Assembly (NCBI RefSeq): GCF_000058485.1
Contig: NC_008278.1
Location: 124,001-188,000 of the forward strand
DNA: 64,000 nucleotides
Direction of reading: 5' to 3'
Source of the DNA: Frankia alni ACN14a
GTDB lineage: Bacteria; Actinomycetota; Actinomycetes; Frankiales; Frankiaceae
Every line of letters begins with the position of its first letter. The first letter of the stretch is position 1. The notes beneath the pieces were generated by a model. It made no database searches, was not told the DNA's origin, and saw only the letters and a list, made by a program, of their open reading frames with translations. Shown here in pieces: positions 12,226 through 18,196 of this stretch. Made by a program: the position numbers and the translations under genes.

Positions 12226-13131
12226 ATGGACCGTGACCGCCCCCAGAACTGGGTGGTTCGGTCTGCCGTGCCCGGGTTCCGGCCCGGCGTCAGCGCGTTC
12301 CGGTTCACGAACAGCTTCGACGTCCAGCCACTGCTGGCCCTGCGGCTGCCCGGCCTCCCCTGGGGCCTCGGGATCGGGGACGCCAGCCGCGGCCTGTGCG
12401 GCGGCATGATCTTCGCGGTGCGCGACCTGTTCGAGGCCGGCCTCGCCGCGCCGCCCGACGTCGAGTCGCCCCGGCGGGGCTCCCCGCTGTACGGCTACCT
12501 CGTGCGCCGCCTGGTGGCGAGCTTCGACCTGCCCCGCGGCGTCGCCCGGTACTACGGCCTCATGCGGGCCGCCGACACCTACCCCCAGCCGCGCCGCGGG
12601 GTCGCGTGGTGGCCCGGCACTGGCCGGCAGGACCGCCGCGGCTCCACCTCTGACCCTCGCGGCTCCACCTCTGACGGTCCCGGCTCTGTCCCCAACCGTT
12701 CCGGGTCTGTTCCGGGGCGGCCCGGCGGCGCGCTGGGCCGCCTCGGCGTCGGCCGCCGCAGCCTCGCCGACGAGTGGCCGCGGATCCGGCTCGATCTCGA
12801 CTCCGGCCGGCTCGCCCCGATCGGCGTCATCACCGTCCACTCGGCGGATCCCCTGAAACTCGGCCTGAACCACCAGGTTCTCGCCTACGCCTACACCCAG
12901 GTCGACACGGCGGTGACCCTGCGTGTCTACGATCCGAACACCCCGCTGGAGCGGGCCGACGACGTCACGATGTCCTTCGACCTCGCCGACGCAGGCGGTG
13001 ACGCCGGCAGGGTGCGCATCACCCACTCGATCGCGATCGGCGGCCGGCCGGTGCGCGCGTTCTTCCACTCCCGCTACCGCTGGGCCGACCCGCGCCCGGC
13101 GCTGCGCGCCCATGTCGCCGGCAGACCCTGA
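12226..13131 (+). CDS. Putative papain-like fold protein, possible cysteine peptidase or transferase
   Basis: A 301-residue protein of no family I can name with certainty. Three segments resemble a papain-like triad: GLCGGMIFAVRDLF (Cys at the start of a helix), LNHQVLAYAY (His) and LRVYDPNTP (Asp/Asn). A region around residues 130-170 is a Gly/Ser/Pro-rich repeat (GSTSDPRGSTSDGPGSVP), probably a disordered loop from small tandem repeats. No signal peptide is visible. The ATG has GAGGGG nearby. It is transcribed towards tRNA-Glu and stands alone. Peptidase activity is inference from the motif order; a non-peptidase member of the fold is possible. Confidence 0.55.
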   Translation: MDRDRPQNWVVRSAVPGFRPGVSAFRFTNSFDVQPLLALRLPGLPWGLGIGDASRGLCGGMIFAVRDLFEAGLAAPPDVESPRRGSPLYGYLVRRLVASFDLPRGVARYYGLMRAADTYPQPRRGVAWWPGTGRQDRRGSTSDPRGSTSDGPGSVPNRSGSVPGRPGGALGRLGVGRRSLADEWPRIRLDLDSGRLAPIGVITVHSADPLKLGLNHQVLAYAYTQVDTAVTLRVYDPNTPLERADDVTMSFDLADAGGDAGRVRITHSIAIGGRPVRAFFHSRYRWADPRPALRAHVAGRP

Positions 13132-13152
13132 CCGCACCCAGCGCGGACGGGT

Positions 13153-13182
13153 TTGTCGGCTGCCCTGGCCATCCCCTATGCT
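13153..13182 (+). promoter_or_regulatory. Promoter of tRNA-Glu
   Basis: TTGTCG and TATGCT are separated by 18 bases, close to the actinobacterial housekeeping consensus, about 68 bases before the tRNA. The position fits a tRNA promoter. No experimental support. Confidence 0.45.
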
Positions 13183-13249
13183 TGCAGTGCTTCAGACGAT
13201 CGACGATGTGGCTGAGCGCCTGCTCCGCCCCGGCTGTGATCGTCACCGC

Positions 13250-13322
13250 GCCCCCATCGTCTAGCGGCCCAGGACGTCGCCCTTTCAAGGCGGTAGCACG
13301 GGTTCGAATCCCGTTGGGGGCA
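13250..13322 (+). tRNA. tRNA-Glu (anticodon TTC)
   Basis: A 73-base cloverleaf: acceptor GCCCCCA/TGGGGGC with discriminator A, anticodon stem CGCC/GGCG with loop CTTTCAA giving anticodon TTC, and T-arm GGGTTCGAATCCC. No CCA is encoded. An accessory module begins right after it, so the 3' end is a candidate integration site, although no second copy of the tRNA tail was found in the window. Confidence 0.95.
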
Positions 13323-13458
13323 CACCTCGTCGACCAGCCTCAAGTGCCCGCCTACCAGGCACTGTGGTCTGGTGTATCCCCTGGGACCGGCCGGCTGTGT
13401 CCGGCTCGGGCTGGTGAACTCCGGTGGTCCGCGCCGAACTGGCGCCGAAATTCGGCGG

Positions 13459-13626
13459 CTACGTCTGGTCGGGCTCGCCTGGCCCGCCCCTCTGCTCAAG
13501 GCCGGCCGGCTTCCAGCCGAGGGTCTTCTCGATCCGGCCTCTCATCCGCAGCTCCTCCCCGTCGAGGCACTTCACGTAGATCTTGTTGTCCTCCTGATCG
13601 CCGCCACATTCATCGGAATCGGCCAA
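13459..13626 (-). CDS. Small ORF after the XRE-DUF488 gene, 55 residues
   Basis: A TTG-initiated frame of 55 residues starts four bases beyond the XRE-DUF488 stop. It reads ADSDECGGDQEDNKIYVKCL and LRMRGRIEKTLGW, with a balanced composition unlike the Arg/Pro-rich shadow frames nearby. It may be a small third gene of the module or the tail of a decayed gene. No ribosome site or known family is visible, so this is tentative. Confidence 0.3.
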   Translation of the reverse strand: MADSDECGGDQEDNKIYVKCLDGEELRMRGRIEKTLGWKPAGLEQRGGPGEPDQT

Positions 13627-13630
13627 CTGA

Positions 13631-14375
13631 TCACGTGTGATCAGATCCTGACGGGCTGAGGCCGAGGCTGCGTCGAGGGCCGGTCACCGATCCGGCGGCC
13701 ACGTTGGGAAGTCGGGGCAAAAGGTCGAGAACGACCTGGCGGTGGCAGGCCGACTCGTCATGCTCGACACAGAGGACGGCGGTGGGGTGCTCGCGACCGC
13801 GGGACGCGAGGAGGTCGAGCGCCTGGGTGGCGTCTGGATGGTCGATCTGCTGTCGGTAGACGCGGCAGCCTTCATCGACGCGGCCGGTGCGAAACGGTTC
13901 GCGGTTGTGCTTGGGGTTGCCGAGCGCGCGTAGGTGCAGGTAGTCGATGCCGGCTTCATGGAGGGCATCGCGTAGGCGGGTCTTGCTGAAGCCAGGGCGA
14001 CGGCTGACGGCGTTGAGGCGGATGTCCGCGACGGTGCCCGACCCGCCAGTCAAGGAGGTAGCTGACGAAAGCATCGAGGGTGCGGCCCTCATAGCCGACC
14101 GACACGAACTGACCCGCTCGGGGTGCCATGGCGGCCGCGAGGAGGTCGTCAAGGGTGGTGTCGAACGTGGCGGCAAGGGCGGCAACCGTGAACAGCCGGG
14201 GGTTGACAGTCCGCTGCTGCTCGATGCGTGCCAGGGTCACCGGAGAGATGCCGGCTGCTTCGGCAAGCGCGGCACGACTGAGGTTGAGCTCCTCGCGCCG
14301 TGTACGGATATGGGCACCCAGCCGACGGCCGGCATCGACGTTGGGCCGGTCTTCTTCGCGGGTTCGTCCAGGCAC
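13631..14375 (-). pseudogene. XRE helix-turn-helix fused to DUF488, split by a one-base frameshift
   Basis: From a GTG at 14375 the first frame encodes an XRE domain (LGAHIRTRREELNLSRAALA, then ISPVTLARIEQQ). It then enters DUF488: FVSVGYEGRTLDAFVSYLL, DWRV. At 14037-14039 the reading switches by one base, and the second frame continues TVADIRLNAVSRRPGFSKTR, IDYLHLRALGNPKHNREPF and the CVEHDESACHRQVV end of DUF488. Dropping one G from the minus-strand GGG at the switch restores a single protein. DUF488 proteins are uncharacterised; XRE fusion suggests an autoregulated switch. The frameshift may be real decay, a variable G run or a sequencing error. It lies upstream of the tRNA-Glu end and downstream of its partner gene. 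Confidence 0.75.
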
Positions 14376-14427
14376 GCTCGGTAGCCTACCCTCGGTGATC
14401 AAAGTGGTAAAGGAAACTCTGCTCGGG

Positions 14428-15218
14428 TCAGAAGAGGGATAGCTGGGGTCTTGCTGGTGGCCACACGACTCCGAGGACCATGAACGAGTTGGGGAACTGG
14501 TGAGCATTTCCGATCATGAAGTAGGTGTCCCGCTTCGGACTGGCGAGCTCTTTGAACCACTTCTGGCGGATCTTGCCCAGGACCTGCTCGTCGCCGTATC
14601 GGGCCCGCCAGGAGCGGTATGCCTGCCCGATCTCCCAGTCGATGATCGAGTGGCGGTGGCCGCTACAGGTGCTCACCTGACAGTAGTACCGGTAGCGGAA
14701 CTTGAACGGCAGCTCCTCCAGAGACTCCCGGCTGCGTTCGGGCTCACCGAGACGCATCTGGTCGATCACGCCACGTTGGCTCGCGGTCCAACCGGCCGCG
14801 GCTCCACGGAGAAGTCGAAGACCTCGCGCGGCTCGATGACGGCCAGTGAGGTGTTGTCGGCGCGACGACGCTCGTGGACGCCACCAGGGCCGCAGACGCT
14901 GGGCTGGAGGAACGGTTCGAGGTGCCAGCGGCGTTCCGCCCAGTCCTTCCCCGTCTCCATGAACCTCCCTCGCTGAATGGTGTCAAGGATCGGCCGATAG
15001 CTCTCGGGTCGTCGGTCTTCCGATCCGCGTCGGGCTTCGAGCTCGATGAACTCCCACTTCCGGAACTGCTGTTCGCGAGGAAGATCGCGAAAGTGCACCG
15101 GAAACAGCCGAACCCACTCGTGGGGGATCACATCCGTCCGGATCCCCGCCACACACACTGCCTCGCCGTACTTGTCCGAGACGGTCGGGTACGCCTTCAC
15201 CGTCACGAGCACGGTCAT
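14428..15218 (-). pseudogene. DUF488-associated protein ending in QLSLF, split by a one-base frameshift
   Basis: From an ATG at 15218 the first frame reads MTVLVTVKAYPTVSDKYGEA, then WVRLFPVHFRDLP, RPESYRPILD and EVFDFSVEPRP. It then runs into a stop at 14766. The second frame picks up as GWTASQRGVIDQM, EELPFKFRYRYYC, CSGHRHSIIDWEIGQAYRSW and ends VVWPPARPQLSLF. The protein family I recall is single-chain, about 300 residues, ends in QLSLF and often neighbours DUF488 genes. The join near 14792 needs one extra G in a GG run. A GTGA overlap at 14766-14769 could instead allow two coupled polypeptides. Function is unknown; the Cys/His segment could bind metal. Confidence 0.65.
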
Positions 15219-15477
15219 CCGGATGCGACCATGATGCGCAATCCCGTCGTGACCCACATAGCGACGATCACATGCCGCACGCCTCTATGTAGTCCTTTCG
15301 TGTCGATCGGGTAGAAGTTGACGCTCGATCCCTTGGACTTGTTTGCTGGTCGTCACGTGGTGGCTGTGGGTCGGGGAATGCGCCGGTAGCGATGCTGCCC
15401 GGGGGCAACGGCGACGATCTCGGAGTCCGTCCGTTCCGCGAGCTGCTCGCTGAACACGGTGTCGGCGTCGATGGGGG
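15219..15477. other. Gap between accessory module and ABC transporter
   Basis: About 260 bases with the promoter side of the QLSLF-family gene and the downstream side of the permease gene. It is less GC-rich than the surroundings around 15270-15350. No gene, terminator or repeat could be supported. Confidence 0.35.
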
Positions 15478-16332
15478 TCAGGATCGGCGGCGGGGGGTGT
15501 GCCAGGAGCCGACGGCGATGCGGGCGGCCAGTCCGAACAGCCAGAACAGCGCTAGGCCGAACAGGGAGGACACTATGATCGCGGCAAACAGCGGTGCGGA
15601 CTGGAGGCGCTGGGTGTAGTCGTCGATGAGGCTGCCGATGCCCGGCTGCCCCTGCCGGAAGAAGAAGTCGCCGACGATCGCGCCGATGACCGACAGCCCG
15701 GCGGAGATACGCAGCCCCGTGAACACCGCGGGCAGGGCGCTGGGGAACTCGAGGTGGACGAGCCTTGCCCACCGGCCGGCCTGGCGCAGCGTGAACAGGT
15801 CATGCTGCTCGGCGTCGGTCGACCGGAGCCCGAACAGGGTGTTGGTGATGATGGGGAACAAGGCGACCAGGACGCACACGACGGTACGGGACCAGAATCC
15901 GTATCCCAGCCAGAACCCGATCAGCGGCACGATCGCGAGGATCGGGATCGTCTGGAGCGCCACCGCCCAAGGGTAGAACGACCGCTCGACCCAGCCTGCC
16001 TGGCTCATCAGCACGGCGAAGACCATCCCGAGGGTGGCGGCGATGGCGAGCCCCACGAGCGCGACCTTCGCCGTCGCGCCCAGTCCCCTCAGGGTCTCGT
16101 GGAAGGTGGTCCAGTCCCCGAAGCCGTCGGTGACGACCTCGTGCGGCGGCGGCAGGAGGAAGCGGCGGCGGGGGGCCAGCGCGAGGTAGGTCACGGCGTA
16201 CCAGACGCCGACGACGGCGGCCAGCACGACCAGCGGCGGCCCGGCCCCGCGGGCCGTGCGGTGCAGGCGGCCAGGGCGGCGAGGGCTCTCGGCCGCCGGG
16301 GCCGCGAGCGGTGCCCGGGCAGTCGCCGTCAT
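15478..16332 (-). CDS. ABC transporter permease, NitT/TauT (SsuC) type
   Basis: A 284-residue inner-membrane permease. An N-terminal Arg/Pro-rich cytoplasmic stretch is followed by about six membrane segments (VVLAAVVGVWYAVTYLAL, VALVGLAIAATLGMVFAVLM, IPILAIVPLIGFWLG). The EAA-type loop RQAGRWARLVHLEFPSALPA contacts the ATPase. It resembles permeases for nitrate, sulfonates, taurine or pyrimidine precursors; the substrate cannot be told. The start overlaps the ATPase stop as ATGA, so the pair is co-translated. The likely binding lipoprotein lies 2 kb upstream on the same strand beyond two unrelated genes. Confidence 0.9.
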   Translation of the reverse strand: MTATARAPLAAPAAESPRRPGRLHRTARGAGPPLVVLAAVVGVWYAVTYLALAPRRRFLLPPPHEVVTDGFGDWTTFHETLRGLGATAKVALVGLAIAATLGMVFAVLMSQAGWVERSFYPWAVALQTIPILAIVPLIGFWLGYGFWSRTVVCVLVALFPIITNTLFGLRSTDAEQHDLFTLRQAGRWARLVHLEFPSALPAVFTGLRISAGLSVIGAIVGDFFFRQGQPGIGSLIDDYTQRLQSAPLFAAIIVSSLFGLALFWLFGLAARIAVGSWHTPRRRS

Positions 16333-17075
16333 GTGAACGACTCCTGCAGCGCCGCCGAGACGGTCCGGGCGACGTCGCCGAAGGCGGCGTCGAAGCGCAG
16401 GTCGGCGGGCCGCGGGTAGGCGAACGGGACGTCGACCTGCGCGAGGACCCGCCCCGGTCGGGCTGACAGGACGACGACCCGGTTGGCGAGCCAGACCGCC
16501 TCCACGACCGAGTGCGTGACGAACAGGCCCGCGAACCGCTCGCGGGCGTGGAGCCGCTGCACCTCCTCGCCGAGCCGCTGCCGGGTGATCTCGTCGAGCG
16601 CGCCGAACGGCTCGTCGAAAAGGAACAGCGACGGCCGCACCGTGAGCGCCCGGGCGAGCGAGACCCGCATCCGCATGCCGCCGGACAGCGCCGTGGGCCG
16701 GTGCCGCTCGAATCCCTCGAGCTCGGTGAGGGAGATTGCCGCGGCCACGAGTTCGCGCCGCCGTTTCTTCGGCACGCGGTCGAGTTGGGCGAACAGGCCG
16801 ACATTGCCCTCAACGGTGCGCCACGGCAGTAGCGTGGGATCTTGAAAAACGTAGCCAGGGGCGTTGGGCCCAACGGCAATCGTCCCACTGGAGGGCTCGG
16901 TCAACCCCGACGCGATCCGCAAGAGCGTGGATTTCCCCGAACCCGAAGGCCCGACCACCGTCACGAATTCGCCGTCGGCGATTTTAAGTGACACTCCCCG
17001 CAACGCGTCAGTGCCATCGGGGAAGGTCTTTCCCACGTCGTCGAATGCCAATGCGATCCCCGGCGTAATGGGCAT
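16329..17075 (-). CDS. ABC transporter ATP-binding protein, NitT/TauT type
   Basis: The ATG at 17075 is preceded by GGAAGGGAG at a good distance, so it is chosen over the ORF start 27 codons earlier. The 248-residue protein has Walker A GPSGSGKST, Q-loop YVFQDPTLLPWRTVEGNVG, signature ALSGGMRMRVSLARAL, Walker B LFLFDEPFGALDEITR and an H-loop THSVVEA. This is the SsuB/TauB/NrtD subgroup energising import. It overlaps the permease gene by four bases. A typical partner lipoprotein is encoded further upstream, so the operon appears interrupted. Confidence 0.93.
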   Translation of the reverse strand: MPITPGIALAFDDVGKTFPDGTDALRGVSLKIADGEFVTVVGPSGSGKSTLLRIASGLTEPSSGTIAVGPNAPGYVFQDPTLLPWRTVEGNVGLFAQLDRVPKKRRRELVAAAISLTELEGFERHRPTALSGGMRMRVSLARALTVRPSLFLFDEPFGALDEITRQRLGEEVQRLHARERFAGLFVTHSVVEAVWLANRVVVLSARPGRVLAQVDVPFAYPRPADLRFDAAFGDVARTVSAALQESFT

Positions 17076-17326
17076 CGGCTCTCCCTTCCTGGCCCGGAGC
17101 CGGGCCGTCGGCGACCTGTCGGCGTCCTTTCTGACCGAATCGTAGCCCGCTGGCACGGGGCGTTACCGGGCGCACCCTGACGTCGTCCCGGTGTCAGGGC
17201 CGGGAAACAGTCCCGGAGCGAGGGCCGCCAGCTCGGTTGTCCCGGCGCTGTGTGGTGAACCCGGCTACCTGACTTCCATCATCATCCGGTACGCTGAAGA
17301 GAACGTGGCCGGATGAAGGCGGGGGA

Positions 17327-18196
17327 ATGACGCTGCAACGGGCAGGCGGGCCGATAGTGCGCCGCATTGTACTGGGCACGCAGTTGCGGAGACTCCGCGA
17401 AGCGAAAGGCATTAGCCGGGTGGATGCTGGCTACAGCATCCGGGCATCCGATTCGAAGATCAGCCGGTTGGAGTTGGGTCGGGTCAGTTTCAAGGAACGC
17501 GATGTGGCCGACTTGCTGACACTGTATGGAGTCACGGACGAGAGGGACCGCTCGCCGCTGCTCGAACTCACCCGTCAGGCTAACGAGCCCGGTTGGTGGC
17601 AGGGTTTCACCGACGTGGTGCCGGGGTGGTTTCAGCCATACCTGGGCCTGGAGGAAGCGGCGGTCCTGATCCGGACCTACGAGCTTCAATTCATCCCCGG
17701 CCTCCTCCAGACCAAGGATTACGCCCGCGCCGTCATGGCCGGAGCTCGCCAGGTGGACGGCGCCGACGCCGTCGAACGTCGGGTCCAGGCGCGGATAAGT
17801 AGGCAGGCCATTCTCGACCGGCCAGATCCGCCCCGGGTATGGGCGATCATTGACGAGGCGGCACTGTGGCGCTCGGTCGCCGGGCCGGCCGTCATGCAAG
17901 GCCAGCTCGAACACCTGATCGCCCTGAACGCGAACCCGAACATCACCATCCAGGTGATTCCATTCAACGTCGGCCCCCACCCCGCCGAAGGGGGCGCGTT
18001 CAGCATTCTGCGGTTCGGTGAGCCGGACATCACCGATGTCGTTTACCTGGAGCACCTCACGGGCGCCGTATATCTCGACAAGCCGGACGACGTCACCCGC
18101 TACACGCTCGCCATGGACAATCTGGTGCTCAAGAGCACGACGCCCGACGACACGGCAAAGGTCATCGAAAAAATCGCCTCGCAGCACGTCGCGTGA
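17327..18196 (+). CDS. XRE family regulator with DUF5753 C-terminal domain
   Basis: A 289-residue regulator. The HTH spans about residues 18-70 (LGTQLRRLREAKGISRVDAG, SKISRLELGR). The DUF5753 domain follows (YELQFIPGLLQTKDYARAVM, and IQVIPFNVGPHPAEGGAFSI). This family is greatly expanded in Frankia and Streptomyces, and it commonly sits beside a small DUF397 protein, but no DUF397 gene is seen here. GGGGGA lies just before the ATG. It is convergent with a methyltransferase gene and is one of two genes separating the ABC ATPase from its lipoprotein. Targets are unknown. Confidence 0.9.
   Translation: MTLQRAGGPIVRRIVLGTQLRRLREAKGISRVDAGYSIRASDSKISRLELGRVSFKERDVADLLTLYGVTDERDRSPLLELTRQANEPGWWQGFTDVVPGWFQPYLGLEEAAVLIRTYELQFIPGLLQTKDYARAVMAGARQVDGADAVERRVQARISRQAILDRPDPPRVWAIIDEAALWRSVAGPAVMQGQLEHLIALNANPNITIQVIPFNVGPHPAEGGAFSILRFGEPDITDVVYLEHLTGAVYLDKPDDVTRYTLAMDNLVLKSTTPDDTAKVIEKIASQHVA

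Follow-up and report, generated by a model that had tools for sequence, protein, structure and literature searches.

What is the small minus-strand unit that lies directly behind a tRNA-Glu gene in Frankia alni ACN14a, and could it represent an undescribed system, as the original prediction proposed? We addressed this question within the window, by which we mean the whole stretch of 64,000 nucleotides that was analysed. ARAGORN and profile matches place an XRE-DUF488 gene (component A) and a gene ending in QLSLF (component B) on the minus strand immediately after the tRNA, just as predicted. The features of the locus are the following:

13250-13323, plus strand: tRNA-Glu (TTC), called by ARAGORN, at the edge of the variable region
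13459..13626, minus strand: the "third ORF" of 55 aa with the segment KIYVKCLDG, probably a tyrosine integrase C-terminal remnant
13586..15463, no strand assigned: strain-specific insert with the module, from comparison with genome G002
13634..14375, minus strand: former XRE-HTH + DUF488 gene (component A), with a frameshift at about 14.06-14.12 kb
14431..14769, minus strand: C-terminal half of component B (OB2, C-x4-C-x2-H..DWE), with the terminal pentapeptide QLSLF
14766..15257, minus strand: N-terminal half of component B (OB1), matched by PDC-M19B

The fusion of an XRE helix-turn-helix to DUF488 was borne out by the profile searches, in which HTH_31 (13956-14375, minus strand; E 1.4e-13) and the Pfam DUF488 profile (13634-14185, minus strand; E 4.7e-26, 92.2 bits versus a cutoff of 22.2) match two frames of one former gene A, and by an intact relative of 231 aa in Frankia sp. 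CIT1 (L019:7074-7766). In the window, A and B are spaced by 55 bp. Where the interdomain linker lies, the stop codon of the first B fragment overlaps a GTG belonging to the second. The N-terminal half of B shares 67% and 61% identity with two copies in Frankia CIT1, and within its own genome B is present at the window place only. The same genome contains a second DUF488 gene at 2.69 Mb (L001), without B alongside.

The pair is already catalogued, as the candidate defence system PDC-M19 and under the names DUF488-N3a and, among relatives of B, DuOB, and the notion of an undescribed system has to be given up. PADLOC lists PDC-M19 as a candidate phage defence system of two components, M19A and M19B, and both models match the adjacent window genes: PDC-M19A matches A (1.5e-17), and PDC-M19B matches the N-terminal (1.1e-33) and C-terminal (2e-18) halves of B. 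The window pair almost certainly belongs to a PDC-M19-type module. A also matches Pfam DUF488-N3a, the 'Active DUF488-N3 subclade' (37 bits versus a cutoff of 27), and both halves of B match PHROG 25907, whose function is listed as unknown (3.2e-28 for the N-terminal and 3.5e-25 for the C-terminal half). Pfam DuOB (PF22557, Dual OB-containing domain) matches 15 of 56 B relatives, at best with 5.1e-7; the window B halves gave no match in the Pfam profile search, DuOB included, and the L019 locus is likewise without DuOB. The PDC systems came from a guilt-by-embedding screen and are described as mostly without validation (PMC12988326); our literature search found no paper naming PDC-M19. Two features set the window pair apart from the catalogued system, namely that neither of its genes is intact, A and B each being frameshifted, and that it carries a clamp-binding motif that is absent from the PADLOC entry as seen here.

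The genome scan found 215 B relatives, from which 80 loci in named genomes were kept. A DUF488 gene is adjacent to B in 77 of the 80, within 150 bp in 76 of these, so that the proposed neighbourhood of DUF488 and QLSLF genes across distant bacteria stands, and the proposed mobile accessory system is not refuted by homologues located apart; the three loci without an adjacent DUF488 are one truncated Frankia copy and two from Dehalococcoidia. A lies upstream of B on the same strand in 62 of the 77 pairs and convergently in 14, and downstream on the same strand in just one, a Frankia locus, which matches the window arrangement. The pair spans many phyla and occurs also on plasmids, in a group of Gordonia phages and on archaeal plasmids; DUF488 adjoins B in 15/16 fetched phage and plasmid loci (the exception being pSOG2) and in 12/13 viral contigs. 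Methanosarcina and Synechococcus also gave matches in the genome search, and no match was found in E. coli. By a rough pattern, 41 of the 77 A proteins have an XRE-type N-terminus (Pfam was run on one, L019), and non-actinobacterial A proteins are mostly DUF488 alone, of about 145-170 aa. DUF488 proteins at L006, L093, L181-L183 and L188 are extended at the N-terminus by a further domain of about 150 aa, for which the three tested gave no significant Pfam match.

On archaeal plasmids, the partner takes another form. ParB-DUF488 fusions adjoin B on the Sulfolobus plasmids pSOG1 and pBEU9E1 and on Haloquadratum PL100 (L113 4951-7373, L100 4942-7358 and L191 3980-6170), whereas A in the window has an XRE domain and not ParB. 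They resemble a published archaeal fusion, ParB-CTPase-DUF488(-HTH), reported to bind CTP (PMC12704722). The two Sulfolobales plasmids have an extra small gene whose product resembles a PD-(D/E)xK nuclease by eye only; this third gene had no match in Pfam and none in a PDB sequence search. The enzyme partner itself, with DUF488 and the 'Active DUF488-N3 subclade' match, is probably akin to the rhodanese-phosphatase superfamily. Burroughs and Aravind (2023) reportedly united DUF488, DUF4326 and RapZ-C in this superfamily and predicted DNA-end processing in conflict systems. In one actinomycete (L013, about 1384-2722), DUF4326 (6.1e-20) stands beside B in the place of DUF488, which we take to be partner exchange within one enzyme clade. 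The placement of DUF4326 in the rhodanese-phosphatase superfamily is published (PMC9503650).

Comparison within the genus supports the module as an accessory insert at tRNA-Glu, with its boundary at the 3' end of the tRNA. The left flank is matched in all 13 genomes of the genus, the window's included, and neither B nor the module occurs in any of the 12 others (0/12), so that the module is not core genome and the proposed accessory status is upheld. Homology to the window stops at exactly 13323 in 8 of the 12 and at 13324-13339 in 3 more; G002 (L154) follows the window over 12712-13585 and again over 15464-17793 (98% identity), and between these matching flanks it has 10.7 kb of other DNA in place of 13586..15463. 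The ABC transporter permease and ATPase genes beside the module (window 15478-17156) are 98% identical in G002, but several relatives have them on a different contig or at another place, so that this region is variable too.

A third module gene of 55 residues had been considered possible, and the ORF does exist (13459-13626), yet it was rejected as part of the module, being by the G002 comparison probably the C-terminal end of an integrase. Its residues 15-46 share 63% identity with G002:C99:17348-17443 (32 residues), a stretch that follows an integrase-like frame, and the adjoining piece of 100 aa matches a PHROG integrase (4.2e-7). The catalytic-tyrosine segment common to the ORF and the G002 integrase was recognised by eye, and searches of the ORF itself against Pfam, PHROG, plasmids and phages gave no match. 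Probably, then, a dead tyrosine integrase has left its tail here, and this probable C-terminal remnant is the only trace of an integrase gene at the site. As to a second copy of the attachment site, the search of its own genome with the tRNA region as query matched other tRNA genes only. Taken together, the decayed integrase traces and the G002 match make the tRNA end look like an integration hotspot. At least two same-genus genomes carry putative defence-like genes beyond tRNA-Glu: the replacement DNA of G002 encodes a protein of 595 aa with a match to MADS components (mad3 5.9e-58), and the G010 region encodes a UvrD/GajB-like helicase (1.5e-23 to the NERD+UvrD model). The regional scans beyond the tRNA, which covered 70 of 86 picked ORFs, also returned GT4-conflict, CATRA and CHAT domains as pooled results, without strain attribution. 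A CRISPR or defence claim from 'Cas12f' matches was rejected, as an OrfB_IS605 transposase match came from that same set of ORFs.

The point that is new for the module lies in component B, whose terminal QLSLF is the consensus pentapeptide for binding to the beta sliding clamp. The clamp-binding consensus is given as QL[S/D]LF or QxxLF, and PolC of B. subtilis has QLSLF as its C-terminal motif (PMC12309361). The same pentapeptide is termed the 'full consensus' in a transposase, and such motifs arise at differing sites among homologues (PMC4549789). B therefore resembles known sliding-clamp clients such as PolC and transposases in having an identical C-terminal QLSLF and a motif placed in flexible segments, and it resembles transposases also in that the position of the motif moves among homologues; unlike them, it is neither a polymerase nor a transposase, and its clamp binding is predicted from sequence.

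For the motif counts, 110 aligned B proteins were reduced to 66 bacterial and viral representatives of less than 75% identity, leaving out two truncated loci (L033, L054), two partial ones (L189, L190), L191, duplicate loci and the window copy. Expected counts came from shuffling each segment, and shared ancestry within the 66 remains in the following comparisons. The strict form Q..[LMI]F occurs in the linker of 34/66 proteins (0.9 expected), in the C-tail of 20/66 (0.47 expected) and in the N-tail of 2/66 (0.09 expected), and in neither of the folded domains (OB1, 0 versus 1.2 expected; OB2, 0 versus 2.1 expected; n = 66). The loose form Q..[LMIF][FLYM] behaves similarly, with 55 proteins in the linker (4.9 expected), 25 in the C-tail (1.7) and 2 in the N-tail (0.7), against 2 in OB1 (7.1) and 8 in OB2 (10.0). 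Altogether, 60/66 have a loose form (e.g. QLSFF or QLDLL) in a tail or the linker, and the other six retain xxLF or a related stub. Among the controls, the reversed motif was found in 0/66, replacement of Q by E, N, K, D, A or P gave at most 3/66 in any segment, and the partner DUF488 proteins had the motif in 0/77 (2.0 expected). The loci were gathered by a scan for two other patterns, so the clamp motif was not selected for.

The strict linker motif is missing in 32/66, and 22 of those 32 are without a tail motif as well; compensation of linker loss by a tail motif was considered and is unsupported (10/32 versus 12/34). In the window, the linker motif of B is degenerate (QMRLG) and its C-terminus is a perfect QLSLF. 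The Haloquadratum B has QAKLF in its linker, and the Sulfolobus B linkers carry no more than a PIP-like QATL[ED]QYI; it is similar to a PCNA-interacting box and, coming from two distinct sequences only, is a lead. The PCNA-interacting box of archaeal FEN1 is QATLERWF. QxxLF stands in exposed flexible segments, with QLSLF at the C-terminus and a linker and tail of low pLDDT. We consider it likely that the family docks on the sliding clamp.

Structure prediction of the QLSLF protein, which the original prediction had put forward as a check, gave two OB-like barrels, in keeping with DuOB. The AlphaFold2 model of Frankia CIT1 B (mean pLDDT 92.9, pTM 0.90) has two beta-barrel halves, and its weaker parts are residues 151-170 in the linker (blocks 77 and 64) and the C-tail (67). 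The top PDB rows of Foldseek for B were LEF-3, RPA and HIN-200 (E from 8e-5 to about 1e-2, with a TM of about 0.2-0.4), the best VIA match was PriB (Z 8.4, 85 residues), followed by SSB and RecO, and the viral fold library returned LEF-3. LEF-3, RPA, PriB and RecO are OB proteins that bind ssDNA. Such OB arrangements are common, and the matches support nucleic-acid binding at the level of a class only. A PDB sequence search found no match for B, and weak unrelated matches for A and for stand-alone DUF488. For A, modelled with a mean pLDDT of 91.0, the fold matches listed cover the HTH only and not the DUF488 part.

Conserved residues were found in both proteins. The C-x-H segment described for the QLSLF protein is, in exact form, C-x4-C-x2-H followed by DWE; C185, H193, W200 and E201 are invariant in 56 aligned homologues, and proteobacterial and cyanobacterial members keep H and D-W and lack the cysteines. 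In A, the invariant residues include C200, E202, C208, H209, R210, D115, R117, S128 and K129, and the window A fragments retain residues matching them.

In the window itself, the module is probably present as a dead or dying copy. In the frame plot, the frame with the highest third-position GC changes once within B (about 14.78-14.84 kb) and once within A (about 14.06-14.12 kb). Given these jumps, the fragments stem from frameshifts, not from chance ORFs. Each B homologue consists of one ORF, about 255-300 aa long. Frame changes and single-ORF relatives together show that the earlier positions, and the reading of damage by single-base indels, were correct; however, such damage had also been counted as a feature of defence or stress systems, and on that it carries no information, suggesting a dead copy only. 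Accordingly we regard the window copy as probably non-functional. That it is intact in nature, with both frameshifts being sequencing errors, or with B being a true split gene, is something we consider improbable. All invariant A residues are retained across the window's two frames, the B split falls between its two OB domains, and apparent frame changes turned up in 7/26 ORFs elsewhere in a control against a relative (G003/G002 ORFs), a weak control since the reference ORFs are unverified; but A is broken within the DUF488 domain, so that no coupling would rescue it, and all 78 B homologues used later are unsplit. In Frankia sp. CIT1, a second B copy (L033) is truncated and no DUF488 neighbour was found, so the module decays elsewhere too.

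What intact members of the family do can be outlined as follows. The two-protein module would have reached tRNA-Glu, its carrier probably being an element with an integrase. In intact members, dual-OB B may bind DNA and dock on the replication sliding clamp through Q-x-x-L-F in the flexible linker and/or the tails, and would thereby deliver the DUF488 enzyme A to replicating DNA; we hold it to be fairly likely that B does bring A to DNA. A, which has an invariant C-x-E...C-H-R loop, is predicted to be an enzyme with a Rossmann-like fold as in rhodanese-phosphatase proteins. It may modify or process DNA ends or backbones, most likely those of invading phages or plasmids, and its XRE domain could serve either in control of the operon or in aiming the enzyme. 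For the reading as a whole, in which a mobile, clamp-tethered B brings a DUF488 enzyme to replicating, probably invading, DNA and the window holds a dead or dying copy, we see a little better than an even chance. The chance that the purpose of the module is defence, as argued from the PADLOC candidate list and the context, falls somewhat short of even.

The pair could instead be an accessory of host replication or repair, with A and B acting on forks or DNA ends of the cell itself, such as damaged ends, and its presence on mobile elements being secondary. A clamp motif with OB folds is typical of repair factors, many Streptomyces carry the pair on their chromosomes, relatives frequently having one flank in common (90/235 pairs at 70-85% B identity), and in Sulfitobacter it stands beside SSB and RadC. 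Yet its spread is patchy, with 11/296 genomes of the class and none of the 12 in the genus, and it is found on phages and plasmids. When flanks were compared among those named loci for which they are long, 25/47 pairs of at least 85% B identity had 1 kb in common on some side, and only 5/47 on both sides; such low sharing indicates that the contexts change quickly, although Streptomyces often share one side. On this balance we find the host-repair reading rather unlikely.

Quite unlikely, in our judgement, is a device of the mobile elements themselves, through which phages and plasmids access or protect their own replicating DNA, for counter-defence or maintenance. Such a role would suit the 23 plasmid records with B, 11 of them typed conjugative and ranging from Rhizobium to Sulfolobus, as well as the 13 viral contigs, the ParB-DUF488 fusions beside B on archaeal plasmids and the position in a phage immunity region. 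The phage search returned 7 Gordonia phage records of the Nymphadora group and no others, and the Sulfolobus B query found no relative among viral contigs. In temperate Gordonia phage Nymphadora, A and B stand between immunity repressor and integrase, B being gene 43, between the repressor and gene 42; gene 42 (L099 6819-7271) is recorded as 'HipA toxin' and matches DUF488 at 1.5e-53, and the label is therefore probably wrong. Defence genes of prophages are common in repressor/integrase regions, and this location speaks against the mobile-element reading, as do the many chromosomal copies that had no listed mobile gene in reach in an unsystematic look. A toxin-antitoxin pair, with an XRE antitoxin-like protein and a toxic partner, is suggested by the XRE domain on A and the 'HipA toxin' record, but is very improbable, and its HipA/XRE form was rejected, because no HipA-type toxin stands beside the XRE, the phage 'HipA' being a DUF488 match, most non-actinobacterial A proteins are DUF488 alone, and the convergent order in 14/77 is unusual for such pairs.

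Returning to clamp-tethered delivery, we tentatively propose that PDC-M19 may be a fork-tethered immunity, in which the dual-OB protein would dock on the clamp (beta, and perhaps PCNA in archaea), the DUF488 enzyme would process or mark the nascent DNA of invaders, and ParB would serve as alternative targeting in archaea. A clamp motif in its constant partner gives the first concrete and cheap handle, peptide-DnaN binding, on the very widespread, function-unassigned DUF488. DnaN binding, if true, would place the pair at replication forks, and if the pair is defensive, it would target DNA by a principle not found in the literature searched, that of sensing or attacking it via the host sliding clamp.
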